From a bacterium (GTDB lineage: Bacteria > Bacillota_I > Bacilli_A > Izemoplasmatales > Izemoplasmataceae): a stretch of DNA of 45,297 nt. The notes below the pieces were generated by a model. The model was not told where the DNA came from and searched no databases. It was given only the letters and a program-made list of their open reading frames with translations. Positions 19,032 to 30,337 of the stretch are shown piece after piece (the stretch's first letter is position 1; every line of letters begins with the position of its first letter). Both the position numbers and the translations under genes were made by a program. The stretch lies in NCBI GenBank assembly GCA_018400615.1, contig JAGYML010000004.1, positions 1 through 45,297 of the forward strand, written 5' to 3'.

Positions 19032-20207
19032 ATGTTTAAAAGAATATTCACCATCGTCATCGACAGTGTCGGCATTGGCGAATTGCCAGATGCCAAGGCT
19101 TTCGGAGATGAAGGCTCCAATACAATCAAGAACATCGCCCTTGCAGAAGGGGGCATCACCCTGCCGGCCATGGAAAGTCTTGGCTACGGCAATCTCAGTG
19201 ATATATCCGGAGTGGCGAACGTTAAGAATCCCATCGGAAGCTATACGAAAATGAAAGAGATTTCCAACGGAAAAGACACCATGACAGGCCACTGGGAAAT
19301 CATGGGGCTCAAAATTGAAACCCCGTTTAGAACGTTTACCGATACAGGCTTTCCTGATGAACTCATCAAGCAACTTGAAGAAAAAACCGGGCGTAAAATC
19401 ATCGGCAATAAAGCCATGAGTGGCACGAAAATCATCGAAGAACTCGGTGAACACCATGTCGCGACGGGCGATTTGATTGTCTATACATCGGCAGACAGCG
19501 TACTTCAGATTGCGGCGCATGAAGGCATCGTAAGTCTCGAGGAGCTTTATGAAATCTGTGAAACCGCCCGTGAGCTGACCCGTCATGACCCGTATAAACT
19601 TGGAAGAATCATTGCGAGACCGTTTATTGGAGACAAGGAGAACGGTTTCAAGCGGACTGCGAACCGTCATGACTATGCGCTCAAGCCCTACAGTAAAACC
19701 ACCCTCAACCATTTGAAGGATGCGCACTATACGGTCGCTGCCTTTGGGAAGATTGAAGACATCTATGATGGTGAAGGCATCACTGAAAGTCTAAGACAAA
19801 AGAGTAACGACGAAGGCATGCGCCATTTCACTGAGTACGCCAAAAAACCGTTTGAGGGTCTCGCCTATTTGAATCTTGTCGATTTCGATGCCTTGTACGG
19901 GCACCGTCGTGATTCAAAAGGCTACAAGGACGCACTGGAAACATTTGACGCCCAACTTCAGATACTGATGAAGGAAATCGGTGAGGATGATCTGCTCATG
20001 ATTACGGCGGACCATGGCAACGATCCGACATTTAAAGGCACTGATCACACCCGTGAATACGTGCCCCTGCTCATCTACTCGCCTTCCATTACACCTAAAG
20101 CCTTGCCAATAAGAGAAACCTTTGCGGATATCGGGGCCACCATTTCAGACAACTTCAAAGTCGCTCTACCCGATTACGGCACCAGTTTTCTTGACGCCCT
20201 CAAATAA
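19032..20207 (+). CDS. deoB: Phosphopentomutase
   Basis: This 391-residue alkaline-phosphatase-fold enzyme interconverts ribose (or deoxyribose) 1- and 5-phosphates in nucleoside salvage. Motifs are the metal ligand D11 in [13 protein letters not shown], the Thr nucleophile region [10 protein letters not shown] (about 85), and TADHGNDP with [12 protein letters not shown] near the C-terminus. The start at 19032 fits the family and lies 11 nt after AAAGGAG. An in-frame extension upstream overlaps xerD and is not expected. It is the last gene of the operon and is followed by a terminator. Confidence 0.95.
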
Positions 20208-20265: not shown

Positions 20266-23157
20266 TTAAAGTAGATTGCTGTAACGTGCTTCAATGTCCT
20301 TGAGTGTATCCTTGAGCTTGGTTTGTTTTTGCTTTTCAAGCTGTTTGAAGGTCTTGTTTTGTGAAACGGATACTTTCTTCAAGAACCGTTCATACGCTTT
20401 CAAGGTGGGATTCAGGGTGTCATCCATGGTTTTTCGGATGGTTTTGAGATGTGCTTTATTCTCTTTCATGTGGGTATCGAAACTTCTTTCCAAAGCGTCG
20501 TAATCACTTGATTTACGGTTCTTTTTAAGGGTGTCGAGGGTGCTGAGAGCCTCCGTGATGGTGTGATTGATTGAAGCATCACGGTCCTTTTCATCAAGAG
20601 AAGCCTTCAGTGATTCCGCCTTGTTGAAGGTGGCGTCTATTTTGTCGTCTATGGCTTTGAGGGCCGCTTCGGTTTGGCTTCTTTCCTGGGTTAAAACCTC
20701 TTTGATTTCTGATCTTTTTTCTTTAAGGCTATCTTTTTTCTTGTCGATTGATTTCTGGGTGGCTTCATCGAATTCAATGGATTCGAGCGTGTCTTTGAGT
20801 TTTTTGATTTTTTCCTTAGGTTGATTGACTTTTTGCTGGTAAAGCGTATTGGCTTCTTCAATTGCTTCATTGAATCGCTTTTCAGCTGTTTGAGAGGCTT
20901 CGTCTTCGATGGTGTTGCCAAGCAGTTTCTCATTGCCAGATGAATCCTTGAATGCGCCCAGTTTCTGATCGGTCTGTTCAAGCATATCCTTGAAGGTCTT
21001 GATGGTTTTCTCTTTTAACTGGCGGGCGTCCTCTTTGGCTTTCTCTGCCCGGTTTTTGGCGCCTTCAATCTGAGAAAGATAGCGTTTGACCGTATCATCA
21101 TTGGCTTCCTCTTGTTCAATGGTTTCAATTTTTTCGTTGTAGGAAGAGCGGATGGCGGTTTCTTGTTCCTTGAGTTTTCTTTTGTCTCTTGGGTCGGTGA
21201 ACAAGGCTTGTCTGTATGCGAGGTCGCTTAGTTTGCGGTCACGTTCGTTTTTGAGTTCATGGATGTCGCTTCGGTAAGTCTGTCTTCTTTGATTGAGTTT
21301 TTCCTTGGCGTATTCAACTTCGCGTTTGAGGGCGGTATCAATGTTTTCAAGGCGAACCTGATATTCGTTTTCAGCGTACTTGATTTGTTGTCTGGCGAAG
21401 TGCATCTGACTTTCAAGCGTGGTGGAAATCATGGATTCGTTGACACTCGCACCTACGTTCAGTCTTTCCGCCTGGGCTTTTGTCAAAAGCATTTCATTGT
21501 CGTAAAGCGAGCGGATTTTCAGAAGCTGAAGTTCGTATTCCTTGTCGGCAAGTTCGATGAGTCCTTGTTGGTATATGAGTTCGTTCTTGGCGTTTTCCTG
21601 TTGGTAGGTTTTATCGATATCAGCCAAGCGTGTAGCCTTGGTGAGGGCGTAATTGACTTTTTTCTCCTCATTGTGAAACTGCATGTTGAGGGTGTGTTTT
21701 CGGATGACGCTCTGGATGTGCTTTTTGGCTTTGGTTTGTTTCAAGGCGATGGTTTTGTAAGTTGTGGCCAAATCGATTTGTGAGCGCGTAAAGGTATGTT
21801 TGAGCGTACTCAGGGATTTGGAGGCTTCACTGAGATCTTCCATGAAGGTTATTTTTGTATCAAACATGAGTTTTTCAAGTTTGGACGCAAATGTCAAAGC
21901 ATCCTTAAGAAGGGTTTCATAGGCCTGCGTGGTTTTCAAAAGGGTCGCTTCCAATGTCTGATTGAGGGCGAGGTCCTTTTTAAGGGCATCGTAATCGTCT
22001 TGAACCTTGAAAAGCTCTTGTGAATCGTTGAATTGAAGATCAATCTGATTTTTTTCAAGGTCAAGTGCGCTTTGTTTTCTGGCGAAGTCCTTCTCAAGTT
22101 CGAGTTTTTCCTTGTAGAGTTTTGTGCGCTCTTTACGGATTTTCTTCTCTACTTTGTCTTGAAGCTTGCTTTCGGATAAACCTTTTTCCTGCGTAGACTT
22201 TTTCTGATAGGCTTTGAGAAGGTCTTTGAGTTCATCGGTTTCTCCGGCTTTCTCTGCCCGGATGATGTCAAGTTTGAGATCCTTGAGTTCTTTTTCAAGG
22301 GATTCCTTGTCTTTGTGCTGTTCTTCAAGAATGGTCTTGTATTTTTCGCGCATTTCCTGTTCGGCGTTGGCTCTCAGGGTTTCTATCCTTTCATCGACTG
22401 ACGTCATAGCTGTTTTAAGGTCAGTTTTCAAATCGGCTTGTTTTTGTTGGAAGGCCTGGCTTTTTTCGTGGTAGGTCTTTTCCACCCGGCTATTAAGGGA
22501 TGTGGTGTCTGAGCCGTCTGAAAGGATATGGCCGCGTGTTTTCAATTGGGTGAGAAGGGCATCCCTTTCTTCATTCAGTTTCTCAATGAACGTATTGGCC
22601 GCGGTTTTAAAGGCCGTTTGACTTTCATTGATGAGGGTAAGGCTTTCTTCACCTTTGAAAGTGGTATGTCCGATTTCAAAGATGGATTCTATGAACGTAC
22701 TGGTAGCTTCTTCAAACGTTTCCATGTAAGAAGAGGGGGCGGTGGTTAAGTGCGCGCGCTCTTCGATATGGGTGAACAATTTTTCCTTGAGCGAATGGAC
22801 GCTCAGTTCATAATCCTTCTTGATTTCACTGTTTAAAAAATGCAGGCGCATGGTTCTGAGTGCGTGATGAATACGGTCCTTGGACTTCAACAAATGGTCG
22901 AACTGAGCCAGGGTGGTCTGTTCGTCCTTTTGATTGATCTCATGACGCAGACGTTTGATTTCCTGATTGAGAATCGTGAGTTTTTCATTGGAGTCGTCCA
23001 GACGTTTCTTATGAGAGGCCTTGACTTTGTCGTTGGCTTCGACGACCTCCCTGATAAGATTCTGAAGGAGTTCGCTTTCTTTTTGCAAATCCTGATCGAT
23101 GAGGGTACTCAGACTCTGATTGGATGGGGATTCAACTTCGTATTTTTTATTGGCCAT
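20266..23157 (-). CDS. Giant coiled-coil protein, 963 aa, unknown function
   Basis: I do not recognise this family. The protein is highly charged (Lys, Glu, Asp, Gln) and predicted almost entirely helical with heptad-like spacing over nearly the full length. I see no Cys or Trp, no signal peptide, no membrane segment and no ATPase motif, so it is not an SMC or Rad50 protein. A less regular part near residues 90-200 (YMETFEEATSTFIESIFEIGHTT region) may be a folded domain or hinge. A segment near 605-625 (NIDTALKREVEYAKEKL) resembles the upstream gene's product (FIDQALQRETQKAQARI), suggesting a shared origin. Start ATG at 23157 has AAAGGAG 10 nt upstream and lies 23 nt after the previous gene: one operon. 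A cytoplasmic filament or scaffold role is speculation. Confidence 0.85.
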   Translation of the reverse strand: MANKKYEVESPSNQSLSTLIDQDLQKESELLQNLIREVVEANDKVKASHKKRLDDSNEKLTILNQEIKRLRHEINQKDEQTTLAQFDHLLKSKDRIHHALRTMRLHFLNSEIKKDYELSVHSLKEKLFTHIEERAHLTTAPSSYMETFEEATSTFIESIFEIGHTTFKGEESLTLINESQTAFKTAANTFIEKLNEERDALLTQLKTRGHILSDGSDTTSLNSRVEKTYHEKSQAFQQKQADLKTDLKTAMTSVDERIETLRANAEQEMREKYKTILEEQHKDKESLEKELKDLKLDIIRAEKAGETDELKDLLKAYQKKSTQEKGLSESKLQDKVEKKIRKERTKLYKEKLELEKDFARKQSALDLEKNQIDLQFNDSQELFKVQDDYDALKKDLALNQTLEATLLKTTQAYETLLKDALTFASKLEKLMFDTKITFMEDLSEASKSLSTLKHTFTRSQIDLATTYKTIALKQTKAKKHIQSVIRKHTLNMQFHNEEKKVNYALTKATRLADIDKTYQQENAKNELIYQQGLIELADKEYELQLLKIRSLYDNEMLLTKAQAERLNVGASVNESMISTTLESQMHFARQQIKYAENEYQVRLENIDTALKREVEYAKEKLNQRRQTYRSDIHELKNERDRKLSDLAYRQALFTDPRDKRKLKEQETAIRSSYNEKIETIEQEEANDDTVKRYLSQIEGAKNRAEKAKEDARQLKEKTIKTFKDMLEQTDQKLGAFKDSSGNEKLLGNTIEDEASQTAEKRFNEAIEEANTLYQQKVNQPKEKIKKLKDTLESIEFDEATQKSIDKKKDSLKEKRSEIKEVLTQERSQTEAALKAIDDKIDATFNKAESLKASLDEKDRDASINHTITEALSTLDTLKKNRKSSDYDALERSFDTHMKENKAHLKTIRKTMDDTLNPTLKAYERFLKKVSVSQNKTFKQLEKQKQTKLKDTLKDIEARYSNLL

Positions 23158-23180
23158 GGTCGTCGAACTCCTTTCATGAG

Positions 23181-26100
23181 TTATAGATTCTGAACGTCAT
23201 TTTTGATGGATTCGATGTACGAACTTACCAGTGTGTCTTGTTGGTTGAAGAGGTCCGTGGTATCAAGGGGTTCCGAATCCGTTTCAAATAGAGTTTCAAG
23301 TAGTGTTTGGGTGTCGCGTTGGAGGGTTTTGTTCAGTGAATCAAGTGTGGTTTGAAGCTCAGTGAGTTTTTCTTCAATCGTCGCTTCAAGCGTGGTTTTG
23401 CGAGCTTTTTTGATTCGTATCTGGTCCGCTATTTCCCTGTTGACCTTTTCAATCCGCTGATCCAGTTCGTTGGAACTTGAGAGCATTTTGGTTTCATACC
23501 CTTCAAGGGTGGCTTTCAGTTTTTCTTCAAGCGAAGCTTTTTCTTTTTCATACGCTTCCCTGGATTGCGTTAATTGTTTTTCAATGTCCGCTTTGAGGGA
23601 TTCATGCGCCGTTTCAAGATTGGCACTGTCCTTTTCAAGGGTCTTTTCGATATCCGCTTTCTTGGTTTCCTCGTTTTCAACGTGGAAGGCATGAATGTTT
23701 TTGGCGTCTTCAAGACGGCTATTGACGGACTTGATTTTTTCGTCACTCTGGGTGTCGATGGTTTCAAGGTGCGTATTCAATTCTTCATCAAGATGATTAA
23801 GTCTGTTTTGGTAGGTTTCTTTGAGGGCTGCGTATTTTTCCTCAGTGTCGTTTTCCAGCGCTCGATAAGCTTCCAAATCGTTCTCATAGGCTTCTTCAAG
23901 AGGTTTCAAAGAGGCTTCATAGTCCTGATCAATCGCAGTGAGTGCTTCATTCAGTTTCTCTTTGAGGGCAGTGACTTCACTGTCTTTATCCTGTTTGAGT
24001 GCGTCGAGTTTCTTATTGAGAGGGGCCTTGGCATTTTCGTAACGAATATTTTCTTCGGCTTTGGCCTTTTTGGCAGAAGACCTGGCTTTTTCTATAAGGT
24101 CTTCATCGTCTTGTTTCAAGGCGGCGAAACTTTCGTTCATGGACCTTAGCACAGCGTCATGCAGAGCTTTCAAGGCTTTTTGTGTAGATTCGTTGAGCGG
24201 TAGAAGTTGCGCCTTCAAACCAGATAGAGAAAGTGTCTTCTGACTGCGAATCTTCTTGAGAAGGGTGTCAACGGAGTCTTCGTAGGTCTTAGCGGTTCGA
24301 TCTTTTTTGGCTTTGAGGGCACTGAAGGATTTTTCAAGGGTGTTTTTAAGTTTGTTGAGTTGGCTTTTTTTATGACGCTTGCTGACGCCCTGACGTTTGA
24401 GCCCTTCTTCGAATTGATCAAGTACGACATTTTGGGTTTCTTTCAAGGTGTCGATGAAGGTATCCAGTGTTTGTATGAGACTGTTCTTTTTAGGGGTGCT
24501 CAGGATAATGAGTAGTGACTTGAGAGAGGCGTCTTCATTTTCAAGTGCATCATGATGGGTTGAAAGCCATTCAAGGTGTTGGGTATAATTGGAGTTTACT
24601 ATCTGTTTTCTCGTATTCAGGAGGGCTTGTGTCTGATCGATGCGGGCCTGGGCTTTTTGTGTTTCTCGCTGCAAAGCCTGATCGATGAACGTGAGTTTTT
24701 CTTCGTGTTGATTTTTGGCATCCTCGAAGGCGTCTTGAAGTGAAGTTTCTTTCTCCCTGTAGGCCATGGAAGCGTCTTCGATGGCTATGTCATACTGTTT
24801 TTCAAGAGCGGTTTTTTCTTCACGAATGGTTTTTTTCTGGCGTTCCAGTGCTTGCTTGTTACGGTCGAGTTTCAGGCTCAAGGTTTTAAGCCGCCTGGTT
24901 TTTTCGGCATTGACGCCAATAAGTGCAAGATCACGTTCCTTTTGCAAATCAAGCGATCTCAAAGCCATTTTTTGATTTTCAATGGCTTTTTCGAGTGTTT
25001 TTGCGTGCTCGACGTGGGCTTTTTCTATTTTGGCTTTAGCGGCTTCCAAATCATGTTCAAGTGCAGCCTTTTCCATTTCCTTTTCGACTTGGACTGTGGA
25101 TTTTTCAGCATTTTGATCAAGATCCAGGAACGCTTTTTTCTGTTCAAGACTTTTGAGTTCGAGGGTGTGTTTGAGAAGGGCATCCTTCGTTGAGTAGCGT
25201 TCATCCAGATTCATGAGCTCCACTTCGTGTTTCTTTTCCGCCTGTTTCATGTCGATGTTCAAACTGGCATCTTGTTGTTCGACAGAAATCTTTTCACGGT
25301 TTTCTCTGATTTTCTTGTGGGCCTCCTCAGTATCGAGGAAGAAGCGAATGTCGTCCGCTTCCTGATAAAGTGGAAGCAGGGCGACTGTGGTGTCCTTGAT
25401 GGCTTCAATCTTGTCAGTTGCGTACTTGGAAAACAAGGAAAGCGTATCGTTCAGTGCGGTTTTGGCTTCATTGAGGAAAGGAGACAATTCACCTTTGGCG
25501 AATTCCTTGGTCAGGGTGTCTCTGAGATCACTGCTGCCGGATTGGAATACATCGAATTTGGCTTTGAGATTGGCGTGTAGATAGTGCACGGTCTCATCAA
25601 AATTCTTGAAAATATTTTCAAGAAAACGGAGGGTGTCAGAAGACAGTGATTTCAGGGTTTCTGTGGTCTTCTTGACAGCGTCTTCAAAGGATTTGATGTG
25701 TTCAATGAGTGCATCCTTGCGCAATTGCTGGAGTTCCATCTGTTTTTGGATGGTTTTGAATTCTTCAGGACTTTCCTCTTCACTTGTCCTGGCGAGCAGA
25801 TCTTTGAGGCGAGCCTGTTCGAATTTCATATCCATGTTGACACTCGAGACGAACGTGTTCTTGTAGGACTCGAATTGTTTCCAAAGGTCACTTGCAGAGG
25901 CGTCAATATTCAAAAAGGGACTGTGGATGGCACTTTTGTATTCGTAAAGTTCTTTGGAGAAAGCCCTTATTTGTTCGTTGACTTCCTTGCGGTAGGTATT
26001 GAGCGTATGTTGCAAGGCATTGTCTGATTTTTTTATGGAGGCTTCAAGGGTGCTCTGTGTCTCACTTAAATCCGCATGAAGCTTGTTGAAGCGGGTTTCA

Positions 26101-26669
26101 AGGGTGGCATTCAAGTCATCGATGGTAGCCTTGTGGGTCTTGTAGTCCGCATCCAGTTTCTCCAGGGCATCCTTGAGAGAATTCTGGGTTTGGCGGGTGT
26201 TGTCATTGTGGTTCTGTTTGGAGAGTTCGAGTCTCTTTTCATAGTTTTCAATGCGTTTTTTATGGGTTCTTTCGATGTCTTTCGCGGTTTTTTGTTTTTC
26301 CTTTTCCATGGCCTGAAGGTCGGCTTTGATGGATTTTTTCTTGTCGCTGTTTTTATATTTGATTTTTTTGAGAGCTTCTTTGTGTTGGGCTTTCGTGTCA
26401 CCAATGGATTGATCGATGGCTTCTTTTTCCATTATAAAAGACGCTTCGTTGCTGTTAAGCAATGCCTCGAAGCGTTCATTGTGCGCACGCATTTTTTTGT
26501 CATGCGCGTTTTGGGCCTTGTTCATGGCTTTTTCAGTATCAGCAAGCAAAGACTCGTATTCTTTTCTCAGTTTGTCCAGTTTCTTCTGGATGGGGGTAGC
26601 TTGCTTACGATACGTTTTTTCAATGGAATACCCACTTTTTTCTTTGTGCGCATCATCATAGTTTTTCAT
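23181..26669 (-). CDS. Giant coiled-coil protein, 1162 aa, unknown function
   Basis: I do not recognise this family. It is the first gene of a two-gene operon. It is Lys/Glu-rich and almost wholly helical, with no Cys, no membrane segment, no signal peptide and no nucleotide-binding motif visible. A less repetitive region at about 240-460 has more hydrophobic and aromatic residues (including SPFLNIDASASDLWKQFESY) and could be a globular domain between two long coiled coils. The C-terminus has a short distinct tail (DLFNQQDTLVSSYIESI). Start ATG at 26669 is about 13 nt from AGGAGG, an unusually long spacing; a small AGAGG/CCTCT hairpin in between may shorten it. It diverges from ruvB. Possible roles are cytoskeleton, cell-shape or polar scaffold, all inferred. 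Confidence 0.85.
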   Translation of the reverse strand: MKNYDDAHKEKSGYSIEKTYRKQATPIQKKLDKLRKEYESLLADTEKAMNKAQNAHDKKMRAHNERFEALLNSNEASFIMEKEAIDQSIGDTKAQHKEALKKIKYKNSDKKKSIKADLQAMEKEKQKTAKDIERTHKKRIENYEKRLELSKQNHNDNTRQTQNSLKDALEKLDADYKTHKATIDDLNATLETRFNKLHADLSETQSTLEASIKKSDNALQHTLNTYRKEVNEQIRAFSKELYEYKSAIHSPFLNIDASASDLWKQFESYKNTFVSSVNMDMKFEQARLKDLLARTSEEESPEEFKTIQKQMELQQLRKDALIEHIKSFEDAVKKTTETLKSLSSDTLRFLENIFKNFDETVHYLHANLKAKFDVFQSGSSDLRDTLTKEFAKGELSPFLNEAKTALNDTLSLFSKYATDKIEAIKDTTVALLPLYQEADDIRFFLDTEEAHKKIRENREKISVEQQDASLNIDMKQAEKKHEVELMNLDERYSTKDALLKHTLELKSLEQKKAFLDLDQNAEKSTVQVEKEMEKAALEHDLEAAKAKIEKAHVEHAKTLEKAIENQKMALRSLDLQKERDLALIGVNAEKTRRLKTLSLKLDRNKQALERQKKTIREEKTALEKQYDIAIEDASMAYREKETSLQDAFEDAKNQHEEKLTFIDQALQRETQKAQARIDQTQALLNTRKQIVNSNYTQHLEWLSTHHDALENEDASLKSLLIILSTPKKNSLIQTLDTFIDTLKETQNVVLDQFEEGLKRQGVSKRHKKSQLNKLKNTLEKSFSALKAKKDRTAKTYEDSVDTLLKKIRSQKTLSLSGLKAQLLPLNESTQKALKALHDAVLRSMNESFAALKQDDEDLIEKARSSAKKAKAEENIRYENAKAPLNKKLDALKQDKDSEVTALKEKLNEALTAIDQDYEASLKPLEEAYENDLEAYRALENDTEEKYAALKETYQNRLNHLDEELNTHLETIDTQSDEKIKSVNSRLEDAKNIHAFHVENEETKKADIEKTLEKDSANLETAHESLKADIEKQLTQSREAYEKEKASLEEKLKATLEGYETKMLSSSNELDQRIEKVNREIADQIRIKKARKTTLEATIEEKLTELQTTLDSLNKTLQRDTQTLLETLFETDSEPLDTTDLFNQQDTLVSSYIESIKNDVQNL

Positions 26670-26720
26670 AAGCTCAGAGGGCCTCCTCTTGGGAAACTGT
26701 AGCCTTTTATACTATGTATT

Positions 26721-26749
26721 ATTTTACCATAGCTTCCTGTTTAAAACAA
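26721..26749 (-). promoter_or_regulatory. Candidate promoter of the coiled-coil operon
   Basis: On the minus strand TTGTTT (26749-26744) and TAAAAT (26726-26721) are 17 nt apart, giving a leader of about 45 nt. Confidence 0.5.
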
Positions 26750-26776
26750 CGTTCATTATTCTTGACCGTTATTCTT

Positions 26777-26804
26777 TTGTAAAACAGGGAATTTTGTGTA
26801 TAAT
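26777..26804 (+). promoter_or_regulatory. Promoter of ruvB-queA
   Basis: TTGTAA (26777-26782) and TATAAT (26799-26804) are 16 nt apart. The expected start at about 26811 excludes the upstream ATG at 26810 as the ruvB start. Confidence 0.65.
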
Positions 26805-26827
26805 TTGTAATGAAAGCAGGTGGATGT

Positions 26828-27832
26828 ATGGATGAAAGAATTGTATCAAACGAATCACAAAAAGAGGATATCGAACAAATAGAACTGCGTCCTCAGTATC
26901 TGAGGGACTATATTGGACAAGAACACGTCAAGGAAATGATGTCCATCTTCATACAGGCTGCCAAAAAGCGGAACGAGAGTCTTGACCATGTGCTTTTATA
27001 TGGTCCACCCGGTCTTGGGAAGACCACCCTTGCCCATATTGTGGCCAATGAAGTGGATGCGTCCATAAAAACCGCCAGTGGCCCCGCCATTGAAAGAAGT
27101 GGGGATTTAGCCGTACTCCTTACAAGTCTTGAACCCGGTGACATTCTTTTTATTGATGAAATCCACAGACTCCCAAGAGTGGTTGAAGAAGTGCTTTATC
27201 CCGCCATGGAAGATTTTGCGCTTGATCTCATTGTCGGGAAGGATGAAACCAGCAAATCGATTCGCGTGGATTTGCCACCTTTCACCCTGATAGGCGCCAC
27301 CACACGCTTTGGAGATCTCACAGCGCCCCTAAGAGACAGGTTCGGCGTGGTACACAAACTGGAGTATTACGACCAGGGTGCTCTTGAAAAAATATGTAAA
27401 AGAACGGCAAGTATCTATGACAGCGAAGTGGAAATCGAAGGCGTCGCGGAGATAGCCAGACGTTCCAGGGGCACGCCTCGCATCGTCAACCGTCTTTTCA
27501 GACGCATTCGTGATTTTGCAGATGTCCTGAATGACGGAATCATTGACCTAAGCATCACGAAGACCGCCCTTGAAAAACTACAAATCGACCCGCTTGGGCT
27601 CGATCAAAAAGACCACGATTATCTAAGAGGCCTCATTGAAAACTTCGGAGGGGGTCCAGTAGGAATTGAATCCCTCGCCGCCTCAATCAGTGAGGAAGTG
27701 ACCACGATAGAAGATGTTTATGAACCGTTTTTGCTTAAAATAGGGTTTGTCAAACGAACCCCGCGTGGCCGCGTAGCGACAGAAAAAGCCTATAAGCATC
27801 TGGGCCATGGATACCAGAAAGGATTATTTTAA
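26828..27832 (+). CDS. ruvB: Holliday junction branch migration helicase RuvB
   Basis: This is a 334-residue AAA+ motor. Walker [10 protein letters not shown] is at 59-67 and Walker B with the DEIHRL sensor region at about 109; [18 protein letters not shown] and the C-terminal winged helix ([15 protein letters not shown]) follow. RuvB hexamers drive branch migration with RuvA. Start ATG 26828 follows AGGTGG by 4 nt; a Met 18 nt upstream coincides with the expected transcript start. ruvA, usually directly upstream, is not present here. The stop TAA overlaps the queA ATG by one base. Confidence 0.96.
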
Positions 27833-28869
27833 TGAAAACCAAGGATTTCACCTACGACCTGCCAAAAGAACTGATTGCGCAGACCCCACTTGCAAATAGA
27901 ACCGATTCAAGACTGCTCGCCCTCGATAAGGAAACCGGCGAGATTGACCATACTCAGTTCAATCAACTCCACACCTACTTGAAAAAAGGGGACGTACTGG
28001 TTTTGAATGATACCTCGGTCATCCCTGCGCGCCTTATCGGACGCAAGGATACCGGCGCCGTCATCGAAGTCCTTTTGTTGCACCAAAAGGAAGAGGATGT
28101 ATGGGAATGTCTGGCCAAGAAAGCCAAAAAAATCAAGGTGGGCACCACCATCACATTCGGTGAGGGCCAACTCACCATGGAATGTGTCGAGGTGAAAGAA
28201 GAGGGCATCCGTCTTTTCAAACTCAATTATTCGGGTATTCTTTATGAAGTCCTCGATGAACTCGGCTCCATGCCCCTGCCCCCCTACATCCATGAAAAAC
28301 TTGAAGACGGTGAACGCTATCAAACCGTCTACAACAAGAAAAAAGGCAGTGCGGCTGCGCCGACTGCCGGCCTTCACTTCACAAAACCCTACCTTCAAAA
28401 ACTCGAAGCCATGGGCGTCACACTTACTTACGTCACTTTGCATGTAGGCCTTGGCACGTTCAGACCCGTCAGCGTCAGTGACGTCGAAAGCCACATTATG
28501 CACGAAGAGTACTACAGCGTCTCACAAGCTACCGCTGATATACTGAATACGGCCAAAGAAGAAGGCAGACGCATCATCGCCGTAGGCACAACGTCCTTAA
28601 GAACCCTGGAAACCGTTGCGAAAAAGGACGGCTACATACCAGAGGAAAGCGGCTGGAGCCGCTTGTTCATCTACCCGCCTTATACTTTCAAGGCTGTGGA
28701 TGCACTGCTTACGAATTTCCACTTGCCTGAATCCACCCTGTTGATGCTCGTAAGTGCCTTCGCGTCCAAAAGCATCATCATGAATGCCTACCGTGAAGCC
28801 GCCGAAAAGCGTTACCGTTTCTTTTCCTTCGGGGATGCCATGTTTATCACAGACACGTTAAACCGCTAA
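27832..28869 (+). CDS. queA: S-adenosylmethionine:tRNA ribosyltransferase-isomerase
   Basis: This 345-residue enzyme transfers the ribosyl part of S-adenosylmethionine to 7-aminomethyl-7-deazaguanine in tRNA, making epoxyqueuosine at the wobble base. Motifs are the N-terminal [52 protein letters not shown] and [17 protein letters not shown]. It is of full family length. It overlaps ruvB by one base, and the ruvB-queA order is widely conserved in Bacillota. No tgt gene follows; the next genes are on the opposite strand. Confidence 0.96.
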
Positions 28870-28905: not shown

Positions 28906-29814
28906 TTATTCTCCTGAGCTGTTTGAATTTGTGTGAGGGTTCCCCTCGCTGCCAGGGCCTCTATCAGAGTTTGGGCCTGTGTCTTCACTAGGTCCCATAT
29001 CTTCGCCAGGTCCCATGCCTCCATTGTCTGGAGGGCCGGGCATGGGGCCTTCAAACTGATCCTGATCAATGGATTCTTCTTCAAGAATGGTTTTCAGTTC
29101 AGGGATTTTTCTGTTTTTAAGTTCATCAAGCGTATAGGCGTTAGTTTCATTCAAGATGAGGTTGACAAGCCGCATTTGCATAAAGCCCATGCCGTGTTCT
29201 TTGGCGTCTTCGATTTCACCTTCACCTGGTGGGCCTGCGACGCTGCGCATCATGGAAGCGTTCGATACGCCGTTTCTTGACGCGACTTCGGGAACTTTTT
29301 GTTCAACGTGGACTCTTAGAGTTTCGTTTTTTTCAGTGTCTTCACCCGATACGGTGAACAGGACGTCATTGTTTTCACTGCTCATGTAGCCAAGCTCAAT
29401 GGAGCGGGAGATGAGTCTGTCTATCGCGGTATCCAAATCATCGCCAATGAGATCATCCTGGTTTTCAAGCAAGGTTTCGGCATCGGAGTTGTAGGCATTC
29501 AATTCTACGACCGTGTCTTCACTGTCAAGGTCGATTGAAAAAGAAGGGTTGATTTCCATTTGAATGCTGGTCGTGACCTGGGGTGCATCACCTGGAGACG
29601 CGGGGGTGAACAAGATGATGGCGAATATGAAAACGGCGGTCATGGTCGCAAGCAAGGGAGCCAGACGCTTCAAACGATATGAACTGGTTTTTCTTGTTCT
29701 CGCATCGTCCATGAAGCGTGAGTATTCTGGTGTTTCCTTGATGGACGAAAGGACATCAGGTACATCCTTGTCGGCTTTTTGTCGTATGAGCTTTTCGATT
29801 TTATTGGTTTTCAT
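28906..29814 (-). CDS. RsgI-like anti-sigma factor with Pro/Gly-rich tail
   Basis: This is a 302-residue single-pass membrane protein. Residues 1-45 are cytoplasmic and presumably bind the sigma factor. A membrane segment follows at about 51-70 (LAPLLATMTAVFIFAIILF). The extracellular part begins with TTSIQMEINPSFSIDLD and contains VVELNAYNSDAETLL and AIDRLISRSIELGYM, the pattern of the RsgI middle domain. The last 45 residues are rich in Gly, Pro, Asp and Ser (DMGPSEDTGP and similar repeats), a likely flexible surface tail. The start at 29814 is set by GGGAGGTGA 8 nt upstream and overlaps the sigma gene by 14 nt. RsgI proteins sense extracellular polymers in clostridia; what is sensed here is unknown. 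Confidence 0.82.
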   Translation of the reverse strand: MKTNKIEKLIRQKADKDVPDVLSSIKETPEYSRFMDDARTRKTSSYRLKRLAPLLATMTAVFIFAIILFTPASPGDAPQVTTSIQMEINPSFSIDLDSEDTVVELNAYNSDAETLLENQDDLIGDDLDTAIDRLISRSIELGYMSSENNDVLFTVSGEDTEKNETLRVHVEQKVPEVASRNGVSNASMMRSVAGPPGEGEIEDAKEHGMGFMQMRLVNLILNETNAYTLDELKNRKIPELKTILEEESIDQDQFEGPMPGPPDNGGMGPGEDMGPSEDTGPNSDRGPGSEGNPHTNSNSSGE

Positions 29815-30337
29815 AATGGTCACCTCCCAGTTTCTTTAATTTCTTCAAGGCATTTCTATAAGCCCAAAGCACCGTTCCCAGTGGTTTATCCAAAGACTGT
29901 GCAATGACTTTGTGGGTTTCACCATAAACGATATGGCGTATGACGATTTCTTTTTCGTCTTCACGCAGATGTTTCAGCAGTTCCTGAACCTCGTAGCGGT
30001 TTTCCTGTGAGCTCGATGTACTGCCCAAAAGCATTTCATCTTCGCTTGTATCCACAGACACTTCTCTTTTGCGTCTGTTGAATTCGTTTAAAGCCGTATT
30101 CCTCGCAATGGTCTTGAGCCAGGCGAGAAACTGGCCTTTTTGCTTGTATTTGTCCAGTTGGTTGATCATTTTTATATACGTATCCTGCATCAGGTCTTCG
30201 GCAAGACTTTCATCCTTTACTATAGTGAGAATGGTATAGTAAACGGGGGTTTTGGTATTTTCGTATAAGCGGTCAAAAGCGGATTCGTCACCTTTTTTAA
30301 ACGCCTTAAGGTCTTTTTCCAGGTCTTTGTTATTCAC
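29801..30337 (-). CDS. ECF-type RNA polymerase sigma factor
   Basis: This is a 178-residue group IV sigma factor. Region 2 spans about 18-85 (FDRLYENTKTPVYY, DLMQDTYIKM, FLAWLKTIARN) and region 4 about 115-170 (LREDEKEIVIRHIVYGETHKVIAQSL, given here in part as LREDEKEIVI). It lacks regions 1 and 3 as ECF factors do. The start GTG at 30337 follows GAGGTG with 7-nt spacing. The downstream gene encodes its probable membrane anti-sigma factor and overlaps it by 14 nt, which suggests coupled, balanced synthesis. The target promoters are unknown. Confidence 0.9.
   Translation of the reverse strand: MNNKDLEKDLKAFKKGDESAFDRLYENTKTPVYYTILTIVKDESLAEDLMQDTYIKMINQLDKYKQKGQFLAWLKTIARNTALNEFNRRKREVSVDTSEDEMLLGSTSSSQENRYEVQELLKHLREDEKEIVIRHIVYGETHKVIAQSLDKPLGTVLWAYRNALKKLKKLGGDHYENQ

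Follow-up and report, generated by a model that had tools for sequence, protein, structure and literature searches.

Two adjacent genes in an Izemoplasmatales genome, here called A and B, encode giant and almost wholly helical proteins of 1162 and 963 amino acids (aa). They lie in a 45,297-nucleotide stretch (the window; contig JAGYML010000004.1, positions 1 to 45,297) of a metagenome-assembled genome (MAG) of 1.37 Mb that is 72% complete. Our analysis supports the view that A and B are an undescribed family, and we tentatively favor a role as a non-enzymatic intracellular rod or scaffold system. This reading is based on the invariant adjacency of the two genes, a diverged pair in a further family of the order, fixed protein lengths, long helices, a conserved hinge, joint loss, and sequences in which no catalytic motif, membrane segment or known family is recognized. 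The principal features are as follows.

23181–26669, minus strand: gene A, first of the pair, a giant straight-helix protein of 1162 aa (open reading frame (ORF), 48-member family, hydrophobic period 3.63, AlphaFold2)
20266–23157, minus strand: gene B, second of the pair, a giant helical protein of 963 aa (ORF, 57-member family, AlphaFold2)
25245–25382, minus strand: most conserved block of A, residues 430–475, between short helices and the helix that starts at 470 (conservation and model)
21268–21594, minus strand: conserved candidate hinge or tip block of B, residues 522–630 (conservation and helix break in the model)

Conservation of the pair in Izemoplasmatales

Single-protein searches of 40 relatives recovered full-length homologues, the best with E values of 1e-107 (A) and 1e-180 (B), and this conservation rules out a recent or orphan gene. 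Sampled loci, genomes, families and genera are designated L, G, f and g, respectively. Within the order, a profile of B matches 71 of 90 genomes; when 395 genomes sampled across the class are searched, the only match outside the order is weak and partial (E 6e-7, last 160 positions). The B relatives found among named genomes with an eight-sequence alignment are all MAGs labelled Izemoplasma/Izimaplasma, Mollicutes, Mycoplasmatota or Tenericutes (one ‘Bacillales’), and include Candidatus Izimaplasma HR2 and Izemoplasma acidinucleici.

A and B are adjacent, on the same strand and with A first in 54 of the 54 Izemoplasmatales loci that contain both genes, with a typical gap of 9–45 nt and with ruvB–queA normally alongside. 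The earlier note on this DNA, made from the sequence alone, had suggested looking for the pair in close relatives, where it is conserved. Most of the apparent absences that we inspected are assembly gaps, with either no ruvB or a contig end. The two genes have been lost together and cleanly in G011 (L086) and G074 (L090), leaving ruvB immediately after deoB or a gene for a MATE-type transporter. A truncated, 702-aa A-like gene without B in G002 (L089, 14680–16788) matches positions 164–231 and 512–1026 of the A profile and represents an incomplete loss of the system.

The profiles missed family f2, also of this order, which carries two large helical genes (1108–1129 and 931–971 aa) in the same neighborhood. 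Profile–profile comparison with the main family gives 130.9 for B (reversed control 25.9) and 84.3 for A (25.0), both over the full length, and the crossed comparisons give nothing. On these scores, the f2 pair are true homologues, gene by gene, that have diverged. The score of A against B themselves, 115.9 versus 59.3 for the reversed control, is only suggestive of paralogy.

Length is held far more tightly than sequence. A measures 1163 ± 32 aa (48 members) and B 964 ± 18 aa (57 members), standard deviations of 2–3%, and mean pairwise identity is 17% for A and 23% for B versus 72% for RuvB, 62% for QueA and 64% for DeoB. Evolutionary distances rank-correlate between A and B, and between each of them and RuvB (0.88–0.89), as vertical inheritance would predict. 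The window proteins contain no cysteine, as the earlier note stated, and about 1.7% proline plus glycine, but the lack of cysteine is not a family trait: members of A have 0–6 cysteines and members of B 0–3.

In G038 (L044, 1354–4368, plus strand), a 1004-aa open frame runs antisense to B; it is an artefact of composition, and naive gene calling can overlook B because of it. In G058 (L118, 5864–9317), a frameshift or assembly error breaks A into two frames, of 686 and 504 aa, that overlap.

Predicted architecture and family searches

The AlphaFold2 models of A and B are nearly all helix, with mean predicted local distance difference test (pLDDT) values of 78 and 77, and together with the ORFs they bear out the earlier description of two consecutive giant helical genes. 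The A model contains three helices of ~240–290 residues (2–294, 470–710 and 815–1061), corresponding to 36–44 nm at 0.15 nm per residue, with shorter helices between them. Conservation in A is highest in a 15-residue window centered on residue 445. The longest helix of B spans residues 380–561 (182 residues) and ends in a loop at 562–576. Conservation of B peaks at 541–600, where the relative entropy is ~2.1–2.5 bits versus a mean of 1.23, and the model suggests that the surrounding block could form a hinge or docking tip.

The hydrophobic period was measured in 112-residue windows, for which a synthetic heptad control gives 3.50. It falls between 3.58 and 3.70 in all 48 A proteins (mean 3.63), in all eight f2 proteins and in all 37 members of protein X, a single giant helical protein of a second order described below; no A member is near 3.5. 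The period of B is weaker and more mixed, with 39 of 57 members at 3.58–3.70 and one of 57 at 3.45–3.55. An undistorted helix has a period of 3.63 (PMC9858780), which places the hydrophobic stripe straight along the rod. A and B are not classical heptad coiled coils such as crescentin- or HMW2-type rods, and in that sense the coiled-coil label of the earlier note does not hold. The label ‘giant coiled coil’ can mask another architecture, one of long straight helices under strong length constraint and weak sequence constraint.

Neither protein has a Pfam or NCBIfam family, and no PHROG, phage or PDB family accounts for them. The sole Pfam match is sub-threshold (Apolipoprotein, E = 0.0018, 18.5 bits versus a cut-off of 90); apolipoprotein and other matches in PDB profile searches reflect low-complexity helix only, and the faint apolipoprotein matches may be due to the 3.63 period. 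A literature search found nothing on these proteins, and the earlier proposal of an undescribed family stands. A motif scan of the 57 B, 48 A and eight f2 proteins shows no membrane segment, and none of these or of the 37 X proteins has a Walker A motif (G....GK[ST]) or ABC signature (LSGG). For the window A and B, where the maximum 19-residue Kyte–Doolittle means are 0.72 and 0.44, the absence of a membrane segment, Walker A motif and signal peptide agrees with what had been noticed from the sequence.

Structural maintenance of chromosomes (SMC) proteins and their relatives offer the closest structural matches. The arms of SMC, MukB and Rad50 resemble A and B in their very long helices and central break and are the top Foldseek neighbors, but these matches are generic (template modelling (TM) score ≤0.14). 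An SMC/Rad50-like ATPase was rejected because the motifs of its heads (Walker A in the N-terminal and the ABC signature in the C-terminal one) and a Pfam match are lacking; the conserved central helix break of B has no recognizable hinge domain. Profile searches for SMC or tape-measure kinship, as the earlier note had advised, gave no match. The Streptomyces DivIVA-like cytoskeletal rods FilP and Scy are likewise long rods and include non-heptad (hendecad-type) stretches, but their N-terminal RGYDxxEVD-type motif (pattern GY[DN]xx[QE]V[DN]; PMC9858780) is missing from every A, B and X protein, and a DivIVA-like identity was rejected.

The ruvB locus and protein X in Acholeplasmatales

The pair is flanked by housekeeping genes identified with Pfam, lepA–hemW–xerC–deoB on one side and ruvB–queA on the other, which is the setting the earlier note had recognized. 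deoB converges on B, and ruvB–queA diverges from A.

23158–23180, minus strand: A–B spacer of 23 nt with the ribosome-binding site of B (AAGGAG; sequence read directly)
26670–26809, no strand assigned: intergenic region between the divergent A and ruvB, with AGGAGG before A (sequence read directly)
26810–28869, plus strand: ruvB and queA, fixed neighbors on the A side (Pfam RuvB and Queuosine_synth; kept in relatives)
19032–20207, plus strand: deoB-like phosphopentomutase gene, the usual B-side neighbor, convergent, start inferred (Pfam Metalloenzyme; kept in relatives)

The strand and spacing of A and B suggest that they are co-transcribed, and B is preceded by a strong ribosome-binding site, GAAAGGAG, read from the sequence. 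The main variation in this otherwise fixed locus is insertion of the MATE-type transporter gene between deoB and B in several genera (L037–L039, L041, L043, L090, L106 and L107). No ruvA stands beside ruvB in the f1/f3 loci that were read (L027–L046 and L086–L131), where A sits at the expected place of ruvA; among the Izemoplasmatales loci read, ruvA is beside ruvB in f2 locus L094 only. A protein with an RsgI-like anti-sigma factor domain is encoded near the pair in the window (28906–29823, minus strand; Pfam RsgI_M, E 5e-23).

Families f12, f16 and f22, which form one order, carry a single giant helical protein, X, mostly of ~1070–1250 aa and with no B beside it. We take this order to be Acholeplasmatales, as f12 probably includes Acholeplasma laidlawii PG-8A and f16 A. 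brassicae. X is divergent from ruvAB–queA in nearly every locus seen in the three families.

X loci: L134, 4373–8038; L138, 4471–8082; L147, 9387–13004; L137, 9104–12499; L148–L189; L202–L219

The X proteins of f12, f16 and f22 form a single family, with profile scores of 215–431 versus 50–70 for reversed controls, and their hydrophobic period is 3.62. X resembles A in size and straight-helix periodicity, occupies the same locus in the same orientation, divergent from the ruv genes in both orders, and differs from A–B in being a single gene. Equivalence of X and A by sequence was tried with reversed-alignment controls and is not proven: the profile score of 142.8 is not clearly above the control of 124.3; a smaller earlier comparison gave 110 versus 71. 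The case for orthology of X and A is therefore one of position, orientation and size. In 1.42 Mb of loci, every one of them chosen around the site or ruvB, all 125 giant helical ORFs are at A, B or X positions, and a positional coincidence of the three is unlikely. One X appears degraded (L175, G247:C1 521821–527658, presumably from Acholeplasma palmae), with stops interrupting the matches and a longest ORF of 1002 aa. Apart from this analysis, X is undescribed as far as we could find.

It is possible, though rather doubtful, that A, B and X belong to a single class of giant straight-helix scaffold proteins, ancient and so far undescribed. Such a class would have been at the ruvAB locus since before the split of Izemoplasmatales and Acholeplasmatales, would have been duplicated into A–B in Izemoplasmatales, and would form a cytoskeleton-like framework independent of MreB and the cell wall.

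Carriers of the pair and candidate functions

Among cultured species, Xianfuyuplasma coldseepsis zrk13 and Hujiaoplasma nucleasis zrk29 (L034 and L092) carry the pair, and both are wall-less, non-motile cocci of 300–800 nm (PMC8397711, PMC10470597). These cell forms speak against a gliding or terminal-organelle role and run counter to the analogy with motile or oddly shaped bacteria drawn in the earlier note. FtsW/RodA was not found in the genomes tested from Izemoplasmatales (29/29), f12 (12/12) and f16 (4/4). Every sampled member of f5, f8, f10, f13, f14, f19 and f21 has it, and the ruvB neighborhoods read in those families contain no such giant helical gene. Genus g159 of f22, however, has both FtsW/RodA (2/2 tested) and X, which makes simple wall replacement unlikely and weakens its strict form. 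The suggested link with wall-less cells holds in that the host order is wall-less, but a strict dependence on loss of the wall is not supported; should X and A share one lineage, the protein would be older than wall loss or indifferent to it.

A role as an MreB accessory was rejected, the pair being found with and without MreB. Strong MreB matches are confined to some genera (G005, G007, G009, G010, G016, G022 and G040). The largely complete pair carriers G006, G013, G015 and G024 give only weak matches (~1e-20), mostly to frames of ~610 aa that are probably DnaK. Three tandem mreB genes occur in some Izemoplasmatales genera (G007 C1 670146–673194, G022 C1 439746–442783, G009 C13 81489–84535 and G040 C171 1526–4604) and apparently none in others, though all are wall-less.

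In the scaffold reading, A and B would be a vertically inherited two-gene system that produces two large, cytosolic, non-enzymatic rod proteins, each built of long straight amphipathic helices. The two would most likely pack together as homo- and/or hetero-bundles to form an intracellular scaffold, with the B hinge (522–630) and the A junction (430–475) as docking points and the other helices as spacers whose length would count more than their sequence. We infer the expression, physical interaction, assembly and structural role of A and B; that role may be in a membrane skeleton, in division or in nucleoid organization. Several points weigh against this reading. The predicted TM (pTM) scores are low (0.34 for A and 0.36 for B), such that the models show helicity and not packing, and long helices are not in themselves proof of a scaffold. 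The clean losses in G011 and G074 show that the pair is dispensable in some lineages, and the proposed function is drawn from gene content and predicted structure.

The straight helices could instead lie flat along the inner side of the cell membrane, as do those of apolipoproteins on lipid, and stabilize the membrane of cells that lack a wall. The family-wide 3.63 period is near that of the 11/3 helices of apolipoproteins A and E, which also give the weak matches in Pfam and PDB profile searches, and the order is wall-less. This membrane lining is nonetheless unlikely: the matches fall far under the curated cut-off, as is typical of low-complexity helix, and no common domain is found. The mean hydrophobic moment is only ~0.3 and few windows are lipid-binding by a HeliQuest-type score, values that do not favor strong lipid binding, and the counterpart X is found in a genus that has FtsW/RodA. 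We consider slightly less probable again an organizer of the chromosome or of recombination, in which the pair would act as an ATPase-less, SMC-arm-like rod working with RuvAB or the nucleoid. It would explain the B hinge-like block and the fixed divergent place beside ruvB in Izemoplasmatales and ruvAB in Acholeplasmatales, and SMC arms are the best Foldseek matches. These matches are to generic long helices, however, and the proteins have neither a Walker-type head nor a heptad supercoil; the neighborhood by itself may be historical.

Conservation of length and not sequence would also suit a length ruler or organelle scaffold like HMW2 of Mycoplasma pneumoniae, a protein of 1818 aa with 11 predicted coiled-coil domains that sits in the organelle of motile cells and sets its length at ~0.15 nm per residue (PMC8191905). 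HMW2, too, comes from a wall-less mollicute, is very large and helical, and has no catalytic domain, and its helix length matters. A and B share no sequence or heptad similarity with it, and their carriers are non-motile cocci for which an attachment organelle is not described; such a function is improbable. A phage tape-measure or mobile-element protein, alike in size and helicity, is already refuted. No relative was found in 50,697 phage records and none of B in IMG/VR, there is no informative or tape-measure PHROG, phage genes are absent nearby, and the pair is inherited vertically at one locus.

An intracellular scaffold is the most economical function for A and B, if a tentative one, ahead of membrane lining and of a RuvAB or nucleoid role. 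How wall-less bacteria determine shape, divide and resist osmotic stress is an open question outside Mycoplasma and Spiroplasma, and A–B is a two-gene, order-wide, syntenic candidate for it that is present in two cultured species. The positional counterpart X in Acholeplasma, probably including A. laidlawii, makes the system testable.

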